The notes under the pieces were generated by a model. The model worked only from the letters and a program-made list of their open reading frames with translations. It had not been told where the DNA came from and made no database searches. Below, in pieces: positions 10,522 to 31,111 of a DNA stretch of 31,741 bases. Numbering within the stretch: the stretch's first letter is position 1; every line of letters starts with the position of its first letter. The position numbers and the translations under genes were made by a program. Origin of the DNA: a virus; IMG/VR virus record IMGVR_UViG_3300048790_000039, positions 1 to 31,741 of that record; one strand, written 5' to 3'.

Positions 10522-11565
10522 TTAGCTGATGGTGGATTCCGTGTTGGTGATCTGGTCGATGATCTTGATCGGGATTTCGCGGAACCCCATGATCGGCATG
10601 CCGGCGTAATCTTCGATGCGCAGCAACACGTTACGATCGCGCATGGCCTGCACGTCCATCCAGTGCCGCATGGTGCGGTTGCAGTAATAGACCGGATGCA
10701 CCCCAAAATCGTCGTGCGGCGCGTCGGTCTTGGTAATGCCCGACGTGGAACGGGTCAGTTTGGGGAACAGCAACAGGGTTTCCGCCATGGTGGCGAAAAT
10801 GTCGAGTGCATTGGGTCCGGCGAGGCCGTTGTTGGTAGTGTCGATGTTGGCGACACGCACGCCGTAGCGCCAATCGCTCGGCACCAGCCCGACTTGCTGG
10901 CGGAACCACGAGGTATAAGCCTCGAAACGATTGCCGAGCGAATCAAAGCCAGGGGTTACATCGCCCTTGTCCTCCATATCCAGCCCGGCTTTCGAGCCGC
11001 GCGGGAATGTCAAGAAAAACGACTGCGGCGACCAGCCGATCAGCCACAGCGAAGTGTTGCTCGATCCGGTGCCTTGGCCATTCAGGACGTTGGCAGCGTT
11101 CTGCGCGTTGGCGGTCGAGAGCGTATTGTAGAACGGCGCCAGTCCCATGAATTCGTCGGGGGTGACCGTCGGATTGCCGTAGATGAAAGTCTGCGCGATC
11201 GTCTGCGACATGCCTTCAAGGAAGGCGACATCTTCCGAGCGGCGGAAACGCTGCAAGTCGCCGGAATGTTCGCCGAGCGCGCGATCGACTTGGCTGTAAT
11301 CTTCCAGCATGCCAAGGCCGACTCTTGCTTTGGCCGTGGTCGATTTGGCATAGGGCACGCCCATATTGTAGGAGCGCCAGGAGCCAGCCGGGATCGAGGT
11401 GCGGAACACGAATTCGTGGCCGGTGTGCTCGTTGGCTTCAACCCACGGCGCGTCGTCCGTGTAGTCGTTTTGCTGCGACAGCATTTCGGAGATCTCGGGG
11501 ATTTTGCCCTCGGGATCCATGCGGGACGCAACATCAACGAGGGTCGGCCATGCGCCAGTCGCCAT
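10522..11565 (-). CDS. Major capsid protein (HK97-fold, BPP-1-like)
   Basis: 347 residues. ATG 11565 follows GGAG at 7 bases. Recognisable order: 'DPEGKIPEISEMLSQQND', 'DAPWVEANEHTGHEFVFRTSIPAGSWRSYN', 'MLEDYSQVDRALGEHSGD', 'RSEDVAFLEGMSQTIAQTFIYGN', 'FMGLAPFYNTLS', 'WLIGWSPQSFFLTFPRGSKAGLDMEDKGDV', 'WRYGVRVANIDTT'. This is the pattern of major head proteins of podo- and siphoviruses related to BPP-1. About 415 copies would make a T=7 shell (family knowledge). No protease gene is visible, and the scaffold-like protein is encoded directly upstream. Confidence 0.93.
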   Translation of the reverse strand: MATGAWPTLVDVASRMDPEGKIPEISEMLSQQNDYTDDAPWVEANEHTGHEFVFRTSIPAGSWRSYNMGVPYAKSTTAKARVGLGMLEDYSQVDRALGEHSGDLQRFRRSEDVAFLEGMSQTIAQTFIYGNPTVTPDEFMGLAPFYNTLSTANAQNAANVLNGQGTGSSNTSLWLIGWSPQSFFLTFPRGSKAGLDMEDKGDVTPGFDSLGNRFEAYTSWFRQQVGLVPSDWRYGVRVANIDTTNNGLAGPNALDIFATMAETLLLFPKLTRSTSGITKTDAPHDDFGVHPVYYCNRTMRHWMDVQAMRDRNVLLRIEDYAGMPIMGFREIPIKIIDQITNTESTIS

Positions 11566-11579
11566 AATCTATCTCCGTG

Positions 11580-12590
11580 TTATGCCCGCGCAACTTTTTG
11601 CGAGGATGGGTGATCGTACATTCGGCTGCCAGGGGCTTTACCGTTGCCCTTTGGCGGTTTGAGATCCGAAAGAGGTTGATTGCCTGCTTGTGGTTCGTCG
11701 ATGTAGCGCGCTGCGTTGTGCAGCATGCGCATAAATGCTGGGTGTGAGCCGGCGCCGGTCGTGCGCAAGAATTCGTCGAATTCCTTGCGCTCGGCGGTGT
11801 AGCGCGGTGTGCCGGGTTTTGCCGATGAAATCGTGAGGTCGCGCGCGCGTGCGACCGCGCCCATGGCTGTTTCGTGGCCGGCTCCGCCCAATTCGGGATC
11901 GGCCAAAACCTGCTTTTCCCAATTCCGGCAAGTCTCGTTGAACACCGAGAATTGGTTTTTGAGTGATTCAGCCGCCAAATTGGTGGCGTATTCCGTCATC
12001 GTCTTGGCGTGCAGATCGATCAGCGCTTGCGCGCCCTTGACCGGATCGGCACGGAAATTATCGAACGCGGTATGGACTTCCGCCTTTAAGGCGTCGTCCA
12101 TCTTGAGCGTGTCGGGTAATTTATATTCGTAGGCGACCGGCTCGGGCTTGGCGGCTTCGGCTGGCTTCTCGTCGACCTTAGTTTCAGCCGGTTTTGCAGC
12201 CTCTTTCGCCTTTTCGCCCGGTTTTTGGGCTTTCTCGTCGACCGGCTTTGCTTCGGTTTTGGCTTCGGCCTTTTTGTCGTCTTTTTTTGGCGCGGCTTCC
12301 GCGGCCTTTTTGGCGTCCTCGGCGGCTTTGGCCGCTGTGTCGTCGTCAAACTTTTCCAGCAACGTCTTGTCGAGCTTGGGCGCGTCGGCGGCTGGTTCTA
12401 CGGCCTTTACAGGCTCGGGCGCGGGTTTGGCGTCCGCACCGACAAGAGCTAATTCCGGCTGCGCCAGTGCCCCGGCGGCGGCTGGGCCACCCTCCGTGGC
12501 CGTCACCGTCGCCGGACTGGGCTGGGCGGTTGGGTTATGGGCCGCCGCGCCAGCGTTTGTTGCGTCGTCGGGTTTTACAGCGTCAACCAT
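11580..12590 (-). CDS. Scaffold-like head protein ending in the SRMYDHPSS tag
   Basis: 336 residues. ATG 12590 overlaps the previous stop (TAATG) and has AGGTGA just upstream. Residues 1-155 are a long Ala/Lys/Pro/Glu low-complexity region. Residues ~155-300 are helical (LKMDDALKAEVHTAFDNFRADPVKGAQALIDLHAK, ETCRNWEKQVLADPELGG, ERKEFDEFLRTTGAGSHPAF). The C-terminus reads PGSRMYDHPSSQKVARA. Position right before the major capsid gene, plus an acidic/basic disordered front and helical core, fits a scaffolding protein that shapes the prohead. The terminal nonapeptide is shared with three small proteins encoded 5-6 kb away. Confidence 0.75.
   Translation of the reverse strand: MVDAVKPDDATNAGAAAHNPTAQPSPATVTATEGGPAAAGALAQPELALVGADAKPAPEPVKAVEPAADAPKLDKTLLEKFDDDTAAKAAEDAKKAAEAAPKKDDKKAEAKTEAKPVDEKAQKPGEKAKEAAKPAETKVDEKPAEAAKPEPVAYEYKLPDTLKMDDALKAEVHTAFDNFRADPVKGAQALIDLHAKTMTEYATNLAAESLKNQFSVFNETCRNWEKQVLADPELGGAGHETAMGAVARARDLTISSAKPGTPRYTAERKEFDEFLRTTGAGSHPAFMRMLHNAARYIDEPQAGNQPLSDLKPPKGNGKAPGSRMYDHPSSQKVARA
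11607..11627 (-). repeat. 21-bp DNA repeat encoding SRMYDHP, copy B
   Basis: Identical over 21 bases to 5877-5897, inside the 3' end of the scaffold-like gene and in the same reading frame. Flanking bases differ, so the copies are not part of a longer duplication. Confidence 0.8.
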
Positions 12591-13003: not shown

Positions 13004-13512
13004 TGCATCAATGAGCCAGGGGGAACGATGAGACTACGGCCGGGGACTTGCGGCACAATCGATGGCGTCCAGCCCACGGGCACCGTGTCGCGGTGCGAAG
13101 CTTTCTGCATTTCGGGCAGGATCGCGCCGCGCTTGCCGGTTTTGGCATCGCGGGTGCGGACTGCGGCCTTGTGCAAATTGCGCAGGTTTTCGGCCAGTTT
13201 AACGAATAGCGGATGCAGTTGGCCGCCAGCGACTTTCACCCTGGTGCCATCCGGCATTTTTATGCCGCGTAGCCAATCGCCGGCGCGGGTGTGAACTTCC
13301 GCGATCATCAAGCCGATCGGCAGCCAACGGGTATCTTCTCGCCATGCCGAGGCTTGGCGGCACGCGCCTTCGATCAATTGTAGTTCGCGTCGGAAGCGGT
13401 CGTAGCATTCGCCCTTGAAGGGCAGTACGGCCAGCGCATCGGCATCTTCGGCAGCGAGCCGAAAATTGGTCACCAGACAGTCAAAAATTTCGATTTCGGT
13501 GAGCGCACCCAT
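13000..13512 (-). CDS. Hypothetical phage protein (170 aa), head module
   Basis: ATG 13512, with no clear ribosome site. The 96-bp gap upstream holds four 10-bp repeats, so transcription may start there. The protein is soluble and helical ('FDCLVTNFRLAAEDADALAVLPFKGECYDRFRRELQLIEGACRQ', 'RWLPIGLMIAEVHTRAGDWLRG'), then 'PDGTRVKVAGGQLHPLFVKLAENLRNLHKAA' and a Pro/Val-rich tail. The layout 'WL..G.......HP.F..LA..L' is common in phage proteins near portal genes. The function is unknown to me. Confidence 0.7.
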   Translation of the reverse strand: MGALTEIEIFDCLVTNFRLAAEDADALAVLPFKGECYDRFRRELQLIEGACRQASAWREDTRWLPIGLMIAEVHTRAGDWLRGIKMPDGTRVKVAGGQLHPLFVKLAENLRNLHKAAVRTRDAKTGKRGAILPEMQKASHRDTVPVGWTPSIVPQVPGRSLIVPPGSLMQ

Positions 13513-18711: not shown

Positions 18712-20175
18712 TCACGACCCCTGGAACGGGCTATAGTCGTTTTGACCATAGTTTCCTTCGGCTTGCTTATCAAGGTCCGCGAATGGCCGGAACGTCGTAT
18801 CCCTGTGAATTATTCGCTGCCGGGCTTTGGGGGTGACGGGTTCGGCAAAGGTGAGCATGCAGGCGTCGAATTCGTCGGGGCTGTAGCCAAGTTTTACTTT
18901 CACTTCAGCCTTGGGCTCAAGCATGAGTCGGTCACCCTTAAAGGTGTAGGTCGTCTGTGTTAGCGCAGCCAACAGATTTGCGTCCTCGATGAGCGCGCCG
19001 CCTTGTTTGATCCATTGCACGAATTCAAACGCCATTTCGGCCCGTTTGTTGTAATACCGCTCTTTGTGGTTGGCTTCTTGGGCAAAGTGGACGCCGATTG
19101 GCGACTTGCCCAATAGAATCAGTTGGTCGATCCAGCCGGCGCCAAATCCGCCCGTGTTGTCGATAAAGCAGGCGTCGGCATTCCAATCGGTCCATTTGCG
19201 TGAGACTTGGCCGGCGCCTTGGGTTGAATTGATATTGCGGTATCGCATCAGCGGGAACATCTGAATTCCTTGGCGCGGCGCGATAATGCTGGAATCATCG
19301 CCGTATTGAGCCACGTCCACGCCAAGCACTTTGGAAGTGTCGCCGATCTCATGCTCGCGCCAGTGCCGTTTCATGGCAGCCGATACTTCGTCCGGCCCGA
19401 TGAGGGCATTAAGCGACGACGGCGGAAACTCGCCAAAAATTCTCACTTTGACCCACGGATTATCCCGGCCATATTGTTCGATCATGGCTCTAGCGTGCTC
19501 GACCGAAACCCTTGGTGTGCGCTTGGGATTGTCTGGATCCGCCGTAATCTCGATCATTTTCCACAGTTTACGGGCCACGGTAGCCGCGCGATAAAGTGGC
19601 CCGGCCAGCATCGTCGGATTGCCCGCCTGCACAATATGGGCCTCGATCGGATTGCCGGCGAAAATGCCCTCGCACACCGGCATGACCGAATCAGGCATGT
19701 CGCCGGTTTCATCCAACAGCCAAATTACGTAAGGCCCGTGCAAACCGGCCAGCGCGTTACCGATTTGTGTGGCGTCGGCGCTTTGCGGGTAACTGCGGGC
19801 TTCGATTTTCCACGTATCTGGATGGTCCTTGCAAAACAGCTTTTGGCTGGTCTGTTCGAACAGGTGCATCAACAGCGGTGACCGTGAGCGCCATCGTGCT
19901 AGTTCCGTCCATAAGTTGGCTTTGAGGTTTGGGCCCGATACGGACGCGGCGCCGCCGATCGGGTGCGGACGTGTCAACAGGAAGTTCCAGCCTATCCATG
20001 CCAGTGTTGCGGTTTTTCCCGGCCCGGCGCAGGCTTTCATCGCCATGCGCGGTGAATGCGGAAACTGCTCTAGTGCGTCTAATTGCCAGGCGTCGGGCTC
20101 AACCTTGAACAACTCGCGCACCATGGTTGCGGGGTGCTCGCGCCAGGTCGCAATGCGGTCGGCTATTTCTTGCAT
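18712..20175 (-). CDS. terL: Terminase large subunit (packaging ATPase and nuclease)
   Basis: 487 residues. ATPase part: Walker A-like KACAGPGKT (residues 47-55), Walker B VIWLLDE (150-156), and coupling region 'IVQAGNP' (181-187). RNase H-like nuclease part with three acidic residues: D287 in 'VLGVDVAQYGDD', D339 in 'ACFIDNTGG', D437 in 'SPDEFDACML'. It pumps DNA through the portal into the prohead and cuts it. The start overlaps the preceding small gene by 13 bases and lacks its own good ribosome site, so coupled translation is likely. Confidence 0.95.
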   Translation of the reverse strand: MQEIADRIATWREHPATMVRELFKVEPDAWQLDALEQFPHSPRMAMKACAGPGKTATLAWIGWNFLLTRPHPIGGAASVSGPNLKANLWTELARWRSRSPLLMHLFEQTSQKLFCKDHPDTWKIEARSYPQSADATQIGNALAGLHGPYVIWLLDETGDMPDSVMPVCEGIFAGNPIEAHIVQAGNPTMLAGPLYRAATVARKLWKMIEITADPDNPKRTPRVSVEHARAMIEQYGRDNPWVKVRIFGEFPPSSLNALIGPDEVSAAMKRHWREHEIGDTSKVLGVDVAQYGDDSSIIAPRQGIQMFPLMRYRNINSTQGAGQVSRKWTDWNADACFIDNTGGFGAGWIDQLILLGKSPIGVHFAQEANHKERYYNKRAEMAFEFVQWIKQGGALIEDANLLAALTQTTYTFKGDRLMLEPKAEVKVKLGYSPDEFDACMLTFAEPVTPKARQRIIHRDTTFRPFADLDKQAEGNYGQNDYSPFQGS

Positions 20176-27293: not shown

Positions 27294-27623
27294 TCATAAT
27301 TGCAACGCCGCGTCTATCTTCTCGCGCAAGATAACCAAATCCGCCTTTTCAAAAATCATAAACACTTCCTTGTCGTCGAAACAGCCGTCGCGGCCTATCG
27401 CATCTTCACAAGCAAACGACGCGCCTGTTTCCAAACTGCGTTCAAGGATGCCCATTGCCTGCCCGCTATCGCTTGCGGAAGGCCACGCAAGATTTAGATA
27501 AAGCCAATCATTCTCAAGGCTGTCATCTTTTATCGAAAGACTATCGAAAGCCCACGGCACGCCTTTGCAAAATATTGTGCCGGGCGGGAGTGCCAAGAAT
27601 GTTTTGCGGTCAACTATTTTCAC
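27294..27623 (-). CDS. Hypothetical protein (109 aa), GTG start
   Basis: GTG 27623 overlaps the methyltransferase stop (GTGA), with GGAG at 7 bases. 'MKIVDRKTFLALPPGTIFCKGVPWAFDSLSIKDDSL' followed by 'DWLYLNLAWPSASDSGQAMGILERSLETGASFACEDAIGRDGCFDDKEVFMIFEKADLVILREKIDAAL'. It is an alpha/beta small protein of the sort that recurs in alphaproteobacterial phages ('F..LP.GT.F.K'). The role is unknown. Confidence 0.62.
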   Translation of the reverse strand: MKIVDRKTFLALPPGTIFCKGVPWAFDSLSIKDDSLENDWLYLNLAWPSASDSGQAMGILERSLETGASFACEDAIGRDGCFDDKEVFMIFEKADLVILREKIDAALQL

Positions 27624-28762
27624 GCCACAACTCCACTTTCCTTTATCTCTCCCGTAACAGGATCATGGGGAGGAATGGATTCAGTTAACGAGCTACGGCG
27701 CTTGACCGGCCGCGCCGTGAATCTTTCAACATCGTCTGGCTCGCTCAAAGCCTCGCGCTGGCCTGGTGGAATCCACAACGGCGGCATCGGGCTTTTTCCT
27801 TTGACCCATACGAGCCATACATAATCTGTCGCGGTAGATGCGGTTGGATCCCAGCGACCCTTTACCAGCGGCACGCGCTCGGAAAAGAATGCGACCAGCG
27901 TTGGCGGTTTGGGTCCGAAGATTCGGTTATAGCGGCCGGCGGTCGGAATCCATTGCAATCTGAAAAACATGGCCACGCCGACGTTGGCCATGTCGATCGC
28001 CCGCAACACGAAGGCTTCGGCCTTGTCGCCAAACGGCGGATTGGTCACGATCCAATCAACGTCGCAACTTATTTCTGGTCGCAAAAAATCAGCAACCGAA
28101 TCATTGTAGCCGTAGTCGTGGATGTCGGTTGCATAAACGCTATCGGAATACTCGCGCAACACCTCGGCGATGTGGCCTTCTCCGCACGCTGGCTCCCACG
28201 CCGTTTTGATTCTTTTGCCCATAAAACCGCATGTCGGCAAAACGTGTTGCATCAACGCGCGCGTAGCCCAAGGCGGGGTAGGAAAGTAGTCAAGAGAATC
28301 ATCCGGCTCGTGCCGAGATCCCATAAGCGCGCGGGCGCCGTTGATTTCGTGGTTGTCGATAATCTTGGCGCCGCGGGCGGCTATTCGATCACGCACACCT
28401 TGCACACAAAGTTCAAATGCCTGCTCGGATATGCTGCTGCGCTTCTGTGCGCGCGACGATAATTTGCGGTCAACGCCGACATCATCAAGGGTTACGGATA
28501 ACTGTCCGTTCGCGGTACTGTTCTTTTTTGGGCGCCCTTCCTTAAAGTGCCCGGCTTTTTTGGCTTCGCTGATTATAAAGCCAAGCTTGCGCTCTATGCG
28601 CATTTGAAAAGCGCTGGCGTCGGCTAGTAAAGCTTCGTCGTTGATCTGGCGGGCATAGAGTTTGATATGTTCGATTTCGTCGCGGATTGGCAATACCTCG
28701 TCGATGCGCGTGGCTTCGGCGAGCGCGGCGCGGGCGCGGTCGTATTGGGCGAGCGTTGTCAT
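27620..28762 (-). CDS. DNA adenine methyltransferase with helical N-terminal domain (380 aa)
   Basis: ATG 28762 overlaps the previous stop (ATGA). The 78-residue upward extension is Arg-rich and out of frame. Residues ~1-140 match a helical module often coupled to phage methyltransferases ('IDEVLPIRDEIEHIKLYARQINDEALLADASAFQMRIERKLG', 'LDDVGVDRKLSSRAQKRSSISEQAFE'). The catalytic part has motif I WEPACGEGHIAEVL (189-202), 'ATDI' at 211-214, and motif IV NPPF (241-244), the adenine-N6 signature. 'FRLQWIPTAGRY' and 'FFSERVPLVKG' follow. Without a restriction partner it would be an orphan methylase that protects phage DNA or sets expression timing. The target sequence is unknown. Confidence 0.88.
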   Translation of the reverse strand: MTTLAQYDRARAALAEATRIDEVLPIRDEIEHIKLYARQINDEALLADASAFQMRIERKLGFIISEAKKAGHFKEGRPKKNSTANGQLSVTLDDVGVDRKLSSRAQKRSSISEQAFELCVQGVRDRIAARGAKIIDNHEINGARALMGSRHEPDDSLDYFPTPPWATRALMQHVLPTCGFMGKRIKTAWEPACGEGHIAEVLREYSDSVYATDIHDYGYNDSVADFLRPEISCDVDWIVTNPPFGDKAEAFVLRAIDMANVGVAMFFRLQWIPTAGRYNRIFGPKPPTLVAFFSERVPLVKGRWDPTASTATDYVWLVWVKGKSPMPPLWIPPGQREALSEPDDVERFTARPVKRRSSLTESIPPHDPVTGEIKESGVVA

Positions 28763-29079
28763 GCGTTTGCCAATTCCAAAAGGACATCGGCGTGGCACGG
28801 CTGATCGATGGGGCAGAAGCAAGCAAGATTTTTGCCGCGCAATTCGGTGCGCGCCGCTTCTACAATTTCCGGTCTTTGGTTCAAATATTCCCGGTAAGTC
28901 AAAACCGCTTCTTTGGCGGTTGGCACGCAAATAAACCCGGCACCACTGCGCGCGCCAGGCCGTGCCTTTGGTGACACTATAAAGGGATTGCCCCATTTCG
29001 TAGGGCGCGTGACGATCACGGTATCGTCTGGAATCTTCCAGCCTTTCGTGCGCTTGCGCTGGATCCGGGCTGGCTTCAT
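28759..29079 (-). CDS. DUF4326 family protein (106 aa)
   Basis: ATGA overlaps at both ends. 'PARIQRKRTKGWKIPDDTVIVTRPTKWGNPFIVS' and 'AVLTYREYLNQRPEIVEAARTELRGKNLACFCPIDQPCHADVLLELAN' give the DUF4326 pattern: 'R...GW..P.....V.RPT.WGNPF', and 'LRGK.LACWC.....CH.DVLL'. Two Cys and a His near the end may bind metal. The biochemical function is not known to me. It is common in phages. Confidence 0.85.
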   Translation of the reverse strand: MKPARIQRKRTKGWKIPDDTVIVTRPTKWGNPFIVSPKARPGARSGAGFICVPTAKEAVLTYREYLNQRPEIVEAARTELRGKNLACFCPIDQPCHADVLLELANA

Positions 29080-29312: not shown

Positions 29313-29536
29313 GCGGGGCGGCTTTGATTCGATTTCAAATCAAGGCGACGGGAGCGATCTTTGCGCGAATCGTCGGTCACCATACATCCCGCCGCCGTAT
29401 GGATAACCGCGGCCTTTAGAATATCGCGGAGGTCTTGTTTACTTGGTTCTAAGAGCTTGGCTGGCGGCCATCCGCCCGCGCGTCCTATCGCCATCATGCG
29501 CTTGGTATCGAGAGTTTTGAGGCTGGCGGCGCTCAT
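29309..29536 (-). CDS. Hypothetical protein (75 aa)
   Basis: Joined by ATGA on both sides. 'SLKTLDTKRMMAIGRAGGWPPAKLLEPSKQDLRDILKAAVIHTAAGCMVTDDS' then a basic tail (RKDRSRRLDLKSN). It is helical and basic with a single Cys. Unknown function. Confidence 0.6.
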   Translation of the reverse strand: MSAASLKTLDTKRMMAIGRAGGWPPAKLLEPSKQDLRDILKAAVIHTAAGCMVTDDSRKDRSRRLDLKSNQSRPA

Positions 29537-30069
29537 TTTATCTTCCGGTTGCGGTCGAAACGCTCGCCTTCTGCTATTCCTAACGCACAGCCACGTACCA
29601 AATCACGCCTAAATCCCTGCGGTTTCCACCAATCGACCCTCCATGGCCACAGTAACCGCCCGCTAATTGGAATCTCGCCCTCGTCCATTTCGTAGTCGGT
29701 CATCGTAAACCGTCTTGGCCCTATGAGATAGGCGGCGCCAGCTTGCGCGAGGTCACCCTGTGGGTGGCCATTGTCGTGCGCTGAGTCCCAACCTTCATGG
29801 TCTACCTGCCGCGCGCGTTCCGCAATAACGGCTTTTATGAATGGGGATAACGGGTGGCGGATATGGAGCGCTTCGAACAGGCGCCGCACCATGAACTGCC
29901 GCATGATCGATACGACCGTGAATATGGCCGTAATAGCTAGATTCGTGCCGAGTGGTGGGTTAAAGCCAAATAGCGGGAACACCAGCAATTGGGTGCCGAG
30001 CGCCACCACGAGCCCAATAACGGTCGAAAGCGCCGTTTCCAGAAAAGACATAAGCCGGGATTGCTTCAT
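29533..30069 (-). CDS. Membrane protein (DUF7220-like) fused to a phage domain of unknown function (178 aa)
   Basis: Residues 1-70: 'SRLMSFLETALSTVIGLVVALGTQLLVFPLFGFNPPLGTNLAITAIFTVVSIMRQFMVRRLFEAL', two membrane helices of a small phage membrane family. Residues ~75-178: 'FIKAVIAERARQVDHEGWDSAHDNGHPQGDLAQAGAAYL' and 'LLWPWRVDWWKPQGFRRDLVRGCALGIAEGERFDR', a soluble domain I recall as a stand-alone phage protein ('ERQ.Q...EG....HDD.H..G.L..AA..Y'; 'WPW...WWKP...RRDL..A.AL...E.ER.DR'). Helical His/Asp/Glu content suggests a metal or nucleotide site, not proven. Both neighbours overlap by ATGA. Confidence 0.7.
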   Translation of the reverse strand: MKQSRLMSFLETALSTVIGLVVALGTQLLVFPLFGFNPPLGTNLAITAIFTVVSIMRQFMVRRLFEALHIRHPLSPFIKAVIAERARQVDHEGWDSAHDNGHPQGDLAQAGAAYLIGPRRFTMTDYEMDEGEIPISGRLLWPWRVDWWKPQGFRRDLVRGCALGIAEGERFDRNRKIK

Positions 30070-30440
30070 TTTGAGCGTTTCCGGCGCTTTTTCGGGAATG
30101 TTTCACGTGAAACATTTGGTGCCGTTCGGCGTTTTTTCCGGGATTTTGCAGGTTTTGGCTTGGAAACGGCCAAAAGAGTGCGCTTTGTGGCCGAAATACC
30201 GACTAAATTGGCTGCTTCTCGCTCCGCGAACGTGGGCGGTGCGGTGACCAAATCGGCGGTCTGGATGATTTCGAAGTTTTCCGGCAAGCGGACGCGGGTT
30301 GTCTGCCCTAGCTTTGGCGTGTTTGCGGCCACTGCCGCTTCTAGCTCTTTCCACGCCGGCGGATCGTCGGCATGCCCGCAATCCGCCGCTGTCATCGGCT
30401 TCGGCCCAAGCCAGTTGAATAACCTAGCCAGCAAGTTCAT
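30066..30440 (-). CDS. Hypothetical basic-tailed protein (124 aa) containing a parS site
   Basis: Joined by ATGA at both ends. The first half is mixed ('MNLLARLFNWLGPKPMTAADCGHADDPPAWKELEAAV'), the middle ('TRVRLPENFEIIQTADLVTAPPTFAEREAANLVGI') plain, and the last 35 residues very basic (KPKPAKSRKKRR, KKRRKRSK). Between the basic blocks the reading NVSRETF is encoded by the perfect palindrome at 30097-30116. The basic tail could bind DNA or be shaped by the need to keep the site. No family recognised. Confidence 0.6.
   Translation of the reverse strand: MNLLARLFNWLGPKPMTAADCGHADDPPAWKELEAAVAANTPKLGQTTRVRLPENFEIIQTADLVTAPPTFAEREAANLVGISATKRTLLAVSKPKPAKSRKKRRTAPNVSRETFPKKRRKRSK
30097..30116. 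promoter_or_regulatory. Perfect parS-type palindrome (ParB-binding site)
   Basis: A 20-bp perfect palindrome whose inner 16 bases (30099-30114) are TGTTTCACGTGAAACA, the bacterial chromosomal parS consensus bound by ParB/Spo0J. It lies inside the coding region of the 30066-30440 gene. A chance exact 16-base match in 31.7 kb is about 7 in a million. Confidence 0.88.
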
Positions 30441-30640
30441 GGATTAGCCTTTCTGCCTGCGGCCTTGCGTTTGAGATAGCGGTCGTGCCGAGCTTTGGTT
30501 TCGTGGGTATCCCGGCATGGTCCGCATCGGATACCGCGGCGGATTTTGGCCGGGCAATCGAGGCAATAGAGCCGCGGTGGTCGCACTGAGAGATTGCGGT
30601 CGTTACCGGCCACGGGGAAGTTGGCGATGTTTGCGCTCAT
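30437..30640 (-). CDS. Small zinc-ribbon-like protein (67 aa)
   Basis: ATG 30640 (AAGGG, 7 bases). Longer reading upstream overlaps another gene and is not protein-like. 'PRLYCLDCPAKIRRGIRCGPCRDTHETKARHDRYLKRKAAGRK': two CxxC-type pairs (C-x2-C ... C-x2-C) form a likely zinc ribbon, followed by a basic helix. Small early proteins with this layout often bind nucleic acid. Unknown role here. Confidence 0.65.
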   Translation of the reverse strand: MSANIANFPVAGNDRNLSVRPPRLYCLDCPAKIRRGIRCGPCRDTHETKARHDRYLKRKAAGRKANP

Positions 30641-30801
30641 CGACCCACCCTTACGCTGGCGGTATTTTGAATGCGCATTCGGCGCGCTCGCAACAGCATG
30701 AGTCGAGTATAGAGATTTTTGATTTGTTTGTCTAAACGCCCCAATTGCTCGCGTTCTTTTGGGCTTAATGCCTGACGCCAATTGCGTGCGTTTTTGCTCA
30801 T
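30637..30801 (-). CDS. First gene of the leftward early operon, small basic helical protein (54 aa)
   Basis: ATG 30801 stands only about ten bases behind a predicted -10 box and has no ribosome site, so the mRNA may be leaderless. 'MSKNARNWRQALSPKEREQL' is followed by a helical stretch (GRLDKQIKNLYTRLMLLRARRMR). Its TGA overlaps the next start (ATGA). It fits phage early small proteins with an ELxxLDxxIxxLyxRr-like helix. Function unknown. Confidence 0.6.
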   Translation of the reverse strand: MSKNARNWRQALSPKEREQLGRLDKQIKNLYTRLMLLRARRMRIQNTASVRVGR

Positions 30802-30851: not shown

Positions 30852-30883
30852 CGGTGCCGTCGTCAATCTTGCGGAGTAACAAA

Positions 30884-31111
30884 ATGGTTTCCGCCATCGC
30901 ATGCCCTCAGCCACAAGCCTCCGATGGTGGATCCCGCGCCGTGGCCAATCCCGATTATCCCCGTGACGGGATTGCCACGGCGCGGTCTTGTTTTGAAGTT
31001 GACGAATTTGGCTACGTCAATAACATCTGCAATTTCTCGCCCAATGGGCAGCATGAATTTAGTTTTAGCGACCAATACACCTGCTGCGTCCATTGTGGTG
31101 ACGGACGCTAA
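30884..31111 (+). CDS. Cys-containing early protein (75 aa)
   Basis: ATG 30884 with GGAG at 7 bases. 'ARSCFEVDEFGYVNNICNFSPNGQHEFSFSDQYTCCVHCGDGR' carries Cys/His spaced like a loose zinc site (C, C, H, CC, H, C). The front is Pro/Ser/Ala-rich. The TAA shares an A with the next ATG. First gene of the rightward early operon. Unknown function. Confidence 0.58.
   Translation: MVSAIACPQPQASDGGSRAVANPDYPRDGIATARSCFEVDEFGYVNNICNFSPNGQHEFSFSDQYTCCVHCGDGR

Follow-up and report, generated by a model that had tools for sequence, protein, structure and literature searches.

The question raised by this locus is what a bacterial centromere site is doing inside a coding sequence of a tailed phage. The window, by which we mean the whole stretch of 31,741 nucleotides analysed, was scanned for chromosomal-type parS, taken as the 16-bp TGTTTCACGTGAAACA with at most two mismatches, and an exact match was found at 30099-30114 within aatgtttcacgtgaaacatt at 30097-30116. 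No second match occurs in the record with up to three mismatches allowed. The site is read in frame on the minus strand, where AAT GTT TCA CGT GAA ACA TTC encodes N-V-S-R-E-T-F, and this peptide lies between the K/R-rich blocks KSRKKRRTAP and PKKRRKRSK in the C-terminal tail of a 124-aa ORF. The site, its carrier and the genes that bear on the argument are:

30097..30116, no strand: perfect 20-bp palindrome AATGTTTCACGTGAAACATT with the exact 16-bp chromosomal parS consensus inside (sequence scan)
30066..30440, minus: orphan 124-aa ORF with parS near its C-terminus and the K/R-rich tail KSRKKRRTAP-NVSRETF-PKKRRKRSK (translation; homologue searches empty)
30638..30801, minus: 54-aa ORF, first of the leftward unit, with a 3-base overlap with the next ORF (PHROGs, E 0.012 only)
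30437..30640, minus: gene upstream of the 124-aa ORF in the leftward unit, with a weak DksA-like zinc finger match, phrog_54 (PHROGs)
29533..30069, minus: gene downstream of the 124-aa ORF, with a DUF7220 N-terminal part and a C-terminal part known from phage proteins (profile matches)
27620..28996, minus: DNA methyltransferase, phrog_799, in the leftward unit (PHROGs)
18712..20175, minus: large terminase, the basis for placing the phage among relatives from Hyphomicrobiales genomes (similarity)

Counted from its start near 30801, the leftward unit consists of overlapping ORFs (30638-30801, 30437-30640, 30066-30440, 29533-30069 and further ones), of which the 124-aa ORF is the third; rightward ORFs diverge from it at 30854 onward. 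These small overlapping ORFs and their divergence from the rightward ones suggest an early operon, and parS lies about 0.7 kb into it, on the downstream side of the divergence near 30801. No homologue of the 124-aa ORF was found in Pfam, PHROGs, INPHARED or IMG/VR, and its tail around parS is presumably disordered and basic. Exact matches to the 16-mer are expected 7.4e-6 times per window with uniform bases and 3.8e-6 times with the window's base composition, and the probability of exactly these codons with the peptide fixed is about 1.6e-4 under the window's own codon usage, which favours some of them (GAA 0.66, AAT 0.52). The original prediction had named an exact 16-bp parS in this palindrome, coding for N-V-S-R-E-T-F between basic blocks, and a chance of about 7 in a million per window; rescanning and translation bore out the former and our estimates the latter. 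Its claim that no phage ParB is found holds for the fragment at hand, as a profile search gave no ParB_N (PF02195) match in the record, a result that covers these 31.7 kb and not the rest of the genome.

The record is a 'linear' 31.7-kb fragment, without end repeats, of a tailed phage in which terminase, head-tail adaptor and major head protein were identified; related complete phages are of about 43 kb. No tyrosine integrase was found in the fragment, and within it neither parA nor parB lies beside the site, as they would in a phage-plasmid with its own ParABS. As far as the fragment goes, the arrangement is of the phi29 type, a host-type parS without a phage ParB. Alphaproteobacterial genomes, among them Hyphomicrobiales and Rhizobium, encode terminase relatives at 60-64%, one of them on a 2.6-Mb contig of Rhizobium BK313. 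As these relatives sit in alphaproteobacterial genomes, the host is probably an alphaproteobacterium, and its order probably Hyphomicrobiales. The best ParB gene of Rhizobium BK313 has an exact 16-mer at a distance of 1.5 kb, and a Rhizobiales MAG has two exact 16-mers 1.6-3.6 kb from parB; such a host would thus recognise the phage site.

At least 120 IMG/VR contigs contain the same 20-mer; none contains its reversed form. Among the matches listed (120), the loci form 65 nucleotide clusters and 20 of the 61 usable sites (33%) fall within called ORFs, where 88% would be expected from random positions; sites inside ORFs are often close to gene ends, as in the window. Above-threshold ParB_N matches were present in 4 of 50 parS-bearing IMG/VR records, many of which are fragments. 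In INPHARED the window's 30-mer matched 391 records (reversed control, 10) and the bare 20-mer 356. The count is inflated by many records entitled 'Listeria phage LM 4-11-1/4-14-1', unannotated contigs of possibly chromosomal origin, none of which serves as a named example here. The named INPHARED phages with parS infect Bacillus, Listeria, Lactobacillus, Enterococcus, Arthrobacter, Microbacterium, Gordonia, Pseudomonas, Vibrio and Ruegeria; among the matches listed there were none of Escherichia, Salmonella or Klebsiella, hosts which to our knowledge are without ParABS. The alphaproteobacterial isolates are Ruegeria phage DSS3_MAL1 with two exact sites, RpAliso, which carries parS, and HTVC027P with one 1-mismatch site. 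Many parS-bearing isolates are virulent (P100, phiPsa347, PZA). Phage sites are mostly intergenic, and their locations differ: some are close to a genome end, others within late genes, and a common promoter context is lacking. Among plasmids, in a collection rich in Enterobacterales, 94 of 72,556 records matched, mostly weakly (13 at ≥99%; control, 1), so that at ≥99% identity 201 phage records (2.3 Gb) compare with 13 plasmid records (7.3 Gb). Enterobacterales are not known to have a chromosomal-type ParABS system. A search of the openly licensed literature turned up no study that surveys phages for host-type parS.

In several phages parS occupies a terminal repeat or is no further than about 4% of the genome from an end, as if placed in the DNA that enters first or last. 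The INPHARED positions near a genome end or in a terminal repeat are:

MT670420 (phiPsa347), 379
KP280063 (Vibrio phi 3), 2934
KU998253 (Orchid), 78479
MN602268 (DSS3_MAL1), 143737
OR257569 (RpAliso), 147105

The 5.9-kb inovirus bajarodino virus 6 (L355, PQ006135.1) has six exact parS 16-mers, mostly between genes, at 268, 1800, 3039, 4482, 5234 and 5261. Inoviruses are long-lived episomes.

A coding parS in which conservation can be followed base by base is present in Microbacterium phages. In gene 71 of Quhwahvirus, encoding an HTH protein, parS is read as D-V-S-R-E-T, and all 18 of 18 parS bases are identical across Quhwah, Teamocil and Smarties, three lineages with 45-53% identical codons. 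At other amino-acid-invariant columns the codon is kept in all three in 75 of 159 cases (47%), and the residues flanking parS do not align (3 of 40 invariant). The D-V-S-R-E-T parS occurs again in a second genus (Fregley, Wilca), in another small protein. Like the window, Quhwahvirus has its parS in coding DNA, here that of a variable protein linker; unlike the window, it belongs to an unrelated phage and host and has relatives in which base-level conservation is visible. The comparison of these genes shows that phages can keep parS for its DNA within a variable protein segment, the arrangement found in the window.

As the site is enriched in phages, prefers intergenic positions, is conserved at base level in Quhwahvirus and occurs in identical form near parB in related hosts, the prediction that the window palindrome is a genuine loading site for host ParB is well supported. 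The phage-wide pattern shows selection on parS sites. The earlier reading of a genuine parS for host ParB therefore stands, and among the uses it had listed (partition, silencing, titration, interference) no single one could be picked out.

The explanation we prefer, with about an even chance of being right, is that the site is a working parS for the ParB of an alphaproteobacterial host, which would couple extrachromosomal phage DNA to ParABS/SMC for inheritance. It would be kept by selection on the DNA and tolerated through its placement in the presumably disordered basic C-terminal tail. Recognition of the phage site by chromosomal host ParB is predicted to be very likely, as the sequence is exactly identical to the cognate site. 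ParB-CTP would then load, close into a sliding clamp and spread out along the neighbouring early DNA, as follows from established ParB biochemistry, and the phage genome, being extrachromosomal, would be coupled to host ParA (and SMC). The phage DNA may thereby be positioned and inherited by daughter cells when lysis is delayed, in a carrier state, under starvation or as an episomal prophage. ParB binding at the window site, its spreading and the purpose of partition are the parts of this explanation that we infer.

The window site shares the identical 16-bp consensus and the perfect palindrome with the chromosomal parS of Bacillus subtilis, Caulobacter and Rhizobium, but stands alone in a presumed phage early gene, with no parA/parB beside it. 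Phage use of host ParB is already known from phi29 and sporulation, where host Spo0J/ParB is reported to act in phage genome entrapment in spores (Meijer et al. 2005, as cited in PMC9437464), and the window site is a variant of this in alphaproteobacteria and in coding DNA. Phi29 and its relatives likewise carry host-type sites without a ParB of their own, but there the host is of another phylum and sporulates, the sites are several and near-exact (three with one mismatch and one with two in the relative PZA) rather than one and exact, and the phages are unrelated. The plasmid prophages P1, N15 and mycobacteriophage RedRock also have centromere-like DNA on the phage genome, consisting in RedRock of repeated 8-bp motifs (PMC7157519), but unlike the window fragment they code for a ParA and a ParB of their own, with sites to match. 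Partition is favoured by the phi29/Spo0J precedent, as cited above, and by the inovirus with six exact sites in 5.9 kb, and disfavoured by how rare parS is on plasmids and by virulent phages also carrying it, in part within terminal repeats. As plasmids need partition most and yet carry parS much less than phages do, partition may not be the general reason for its carriage, although the plasmid collection leans to Enterobacterales, which are not known to have this system. Also counting against the preferred explanation, the 124-aa gene is without an orthologue, the terminase relatives are mostly without the site and 27 DUF7220 prophages have none.

The main rival to partition is early-gene silencing, in which host ParB at the site would spread over the early leftward operon, damp its transcription and delay or gate the lytic programme according to host state. 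We consider it unlikely, as ParB spreading has modest effects on transcription in many bacteria and the phage sites are mostly intergenic and scattered, without a shared promoter context. The location of parS within the leftward unit, past the point of divergence, would nevertheless suit such control, and ParB is reported to repress promoters adjacent to parS3 and parS4 in Pseudomonas aeruginosa (PMC5521831). Phages sharing the DUF7220 neighbour bear on both readings. Of eight IMG/VR records with a full-length relative of the 29533-30069 protein, a group chosen post hoc, five have a parS-like site (at most two mismatches), where composition-matched palindromes predict 0.03 and the reversed control has none; this count speaks for the preferred explanation. 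The five sites lie in non-homologous genes or places, two of them inside conserved genes. For silencing speaks that in three phages the site is near repressor-like HTH genes, between these and the integrase and a few kb from the latter. In the temperate, integrase-bearing G042 (L290), a 1-mismatch site at 11152-11167 overlaps the start of an ORF (11160-12203) that matches ParB_N below threshold and may encode a ParB-like phage regulator binding to its own gene.

Two ideas on integration were considered with this group and dropped. As 27 integrated DUF7220 prophage regions (463 kb) have 0 sites where 0.47 are expected at three mismatches, which is not significant, no depletion and hence no avoidance of parS by integrated prophages can be claimed. 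Nor can parS serve as a marker of non-integrating phages, as an integrase is present in four of the five DUF7220 phages with parS.

The site may instead be used during infection itself, with ParB and SMC recruited to the injected or replicating genome for positioning, compaction or protection, or with ParB drawn off the host origin, helping productive infection and not inheritance. Consistent with this, virulent phages carry sites, in some cases in direct terminal repeats or no more than about 4% of the genome from an end (phiPsa347/397, Vibrio phi 3, the Gordonia Orchid group, DSS3_MAL1 and RpAliso), and parS is far commoner in phages than in plasmids. Before the phage has replicated, however, the one site in the window would draw little ParB away from the several sites of the host, and for this locus we judge such use improbable.

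A genuine parS without present function, gained by recombination from the host or another phage or left over, and neither selected nor used here, appears quite doubtful, as the 20-bp palindrome is exact and undecayed and selection on such sites is evident in the phage-wide pattern. What speaks for it is the search for the site in the phage's relatives and the codons, which partly match the window's usage. As no relative of the 124-aa gene was found in IMG/VR or INPHARED, there is no orthologue showing constraint and the conservation evidence comes from the sites of other phages; the 119-aa gene at 31111 and the DnaD-like gene also had no relative in IMG/VR. In IMG/VR the closest phages are L001 (98% terminase) and L002, whose sequences stop short of the parS region. 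Among 21 viral terminase relatives two have parS-like sites with at most two mismatches (TGTTCCACGTGGAACA in G013, TGTTTCATGTGAAACA in G021), and parS is absent from those nearest in sequence. None was found in prophage loci with proteobacterial 56-64% terminase or in the methyltransferase relatives. The G013 site (G013:C1:33968-33983) is a palindromic variant within a very long ORF of 3,372 codons, and TGTTCCACGTGGAACA might suit a host with that parS variant.

A chance match, or protein-level selection for NVSRETF, is very improbable. Scanning many windows does yield some exact matches, and INPHARED with its 2.3 Gb should contain about 0.5 by expectation, but only 4-7e-6 are expected in this window, the 20-mer is enriched over its control and the codons have a probability of 1.6e-4 even with the peptide required.

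The window site is one instance of a pattern undescribed in the openly licensed literature searched. We propose, tentatively and as somewhat short of probable, that carriage of a host centromere is a widespread and largely unreported trait, in which unrelated phages (tailed virulent and temperate phages, inoviruses and probably microviruses) keep parS under DNA-level selection, even in disordered coding segments, for use of host ParB/SMC during infection, a use largely lacking in plasmids. If host ParB acts broadly on phage genomes, chromosome segregation would be a host system exploited by phages, and parS a simple sequence marker of that exploitation, its 16 bases predicting where ParB clamps and SMC may load on phage DNA in infected cells. 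In G039 (L292), the parS-like site TGTTTCCCGTGAAACA at 13065 has a CCCG centre, which makes it as like the Noc-binding site as parS.
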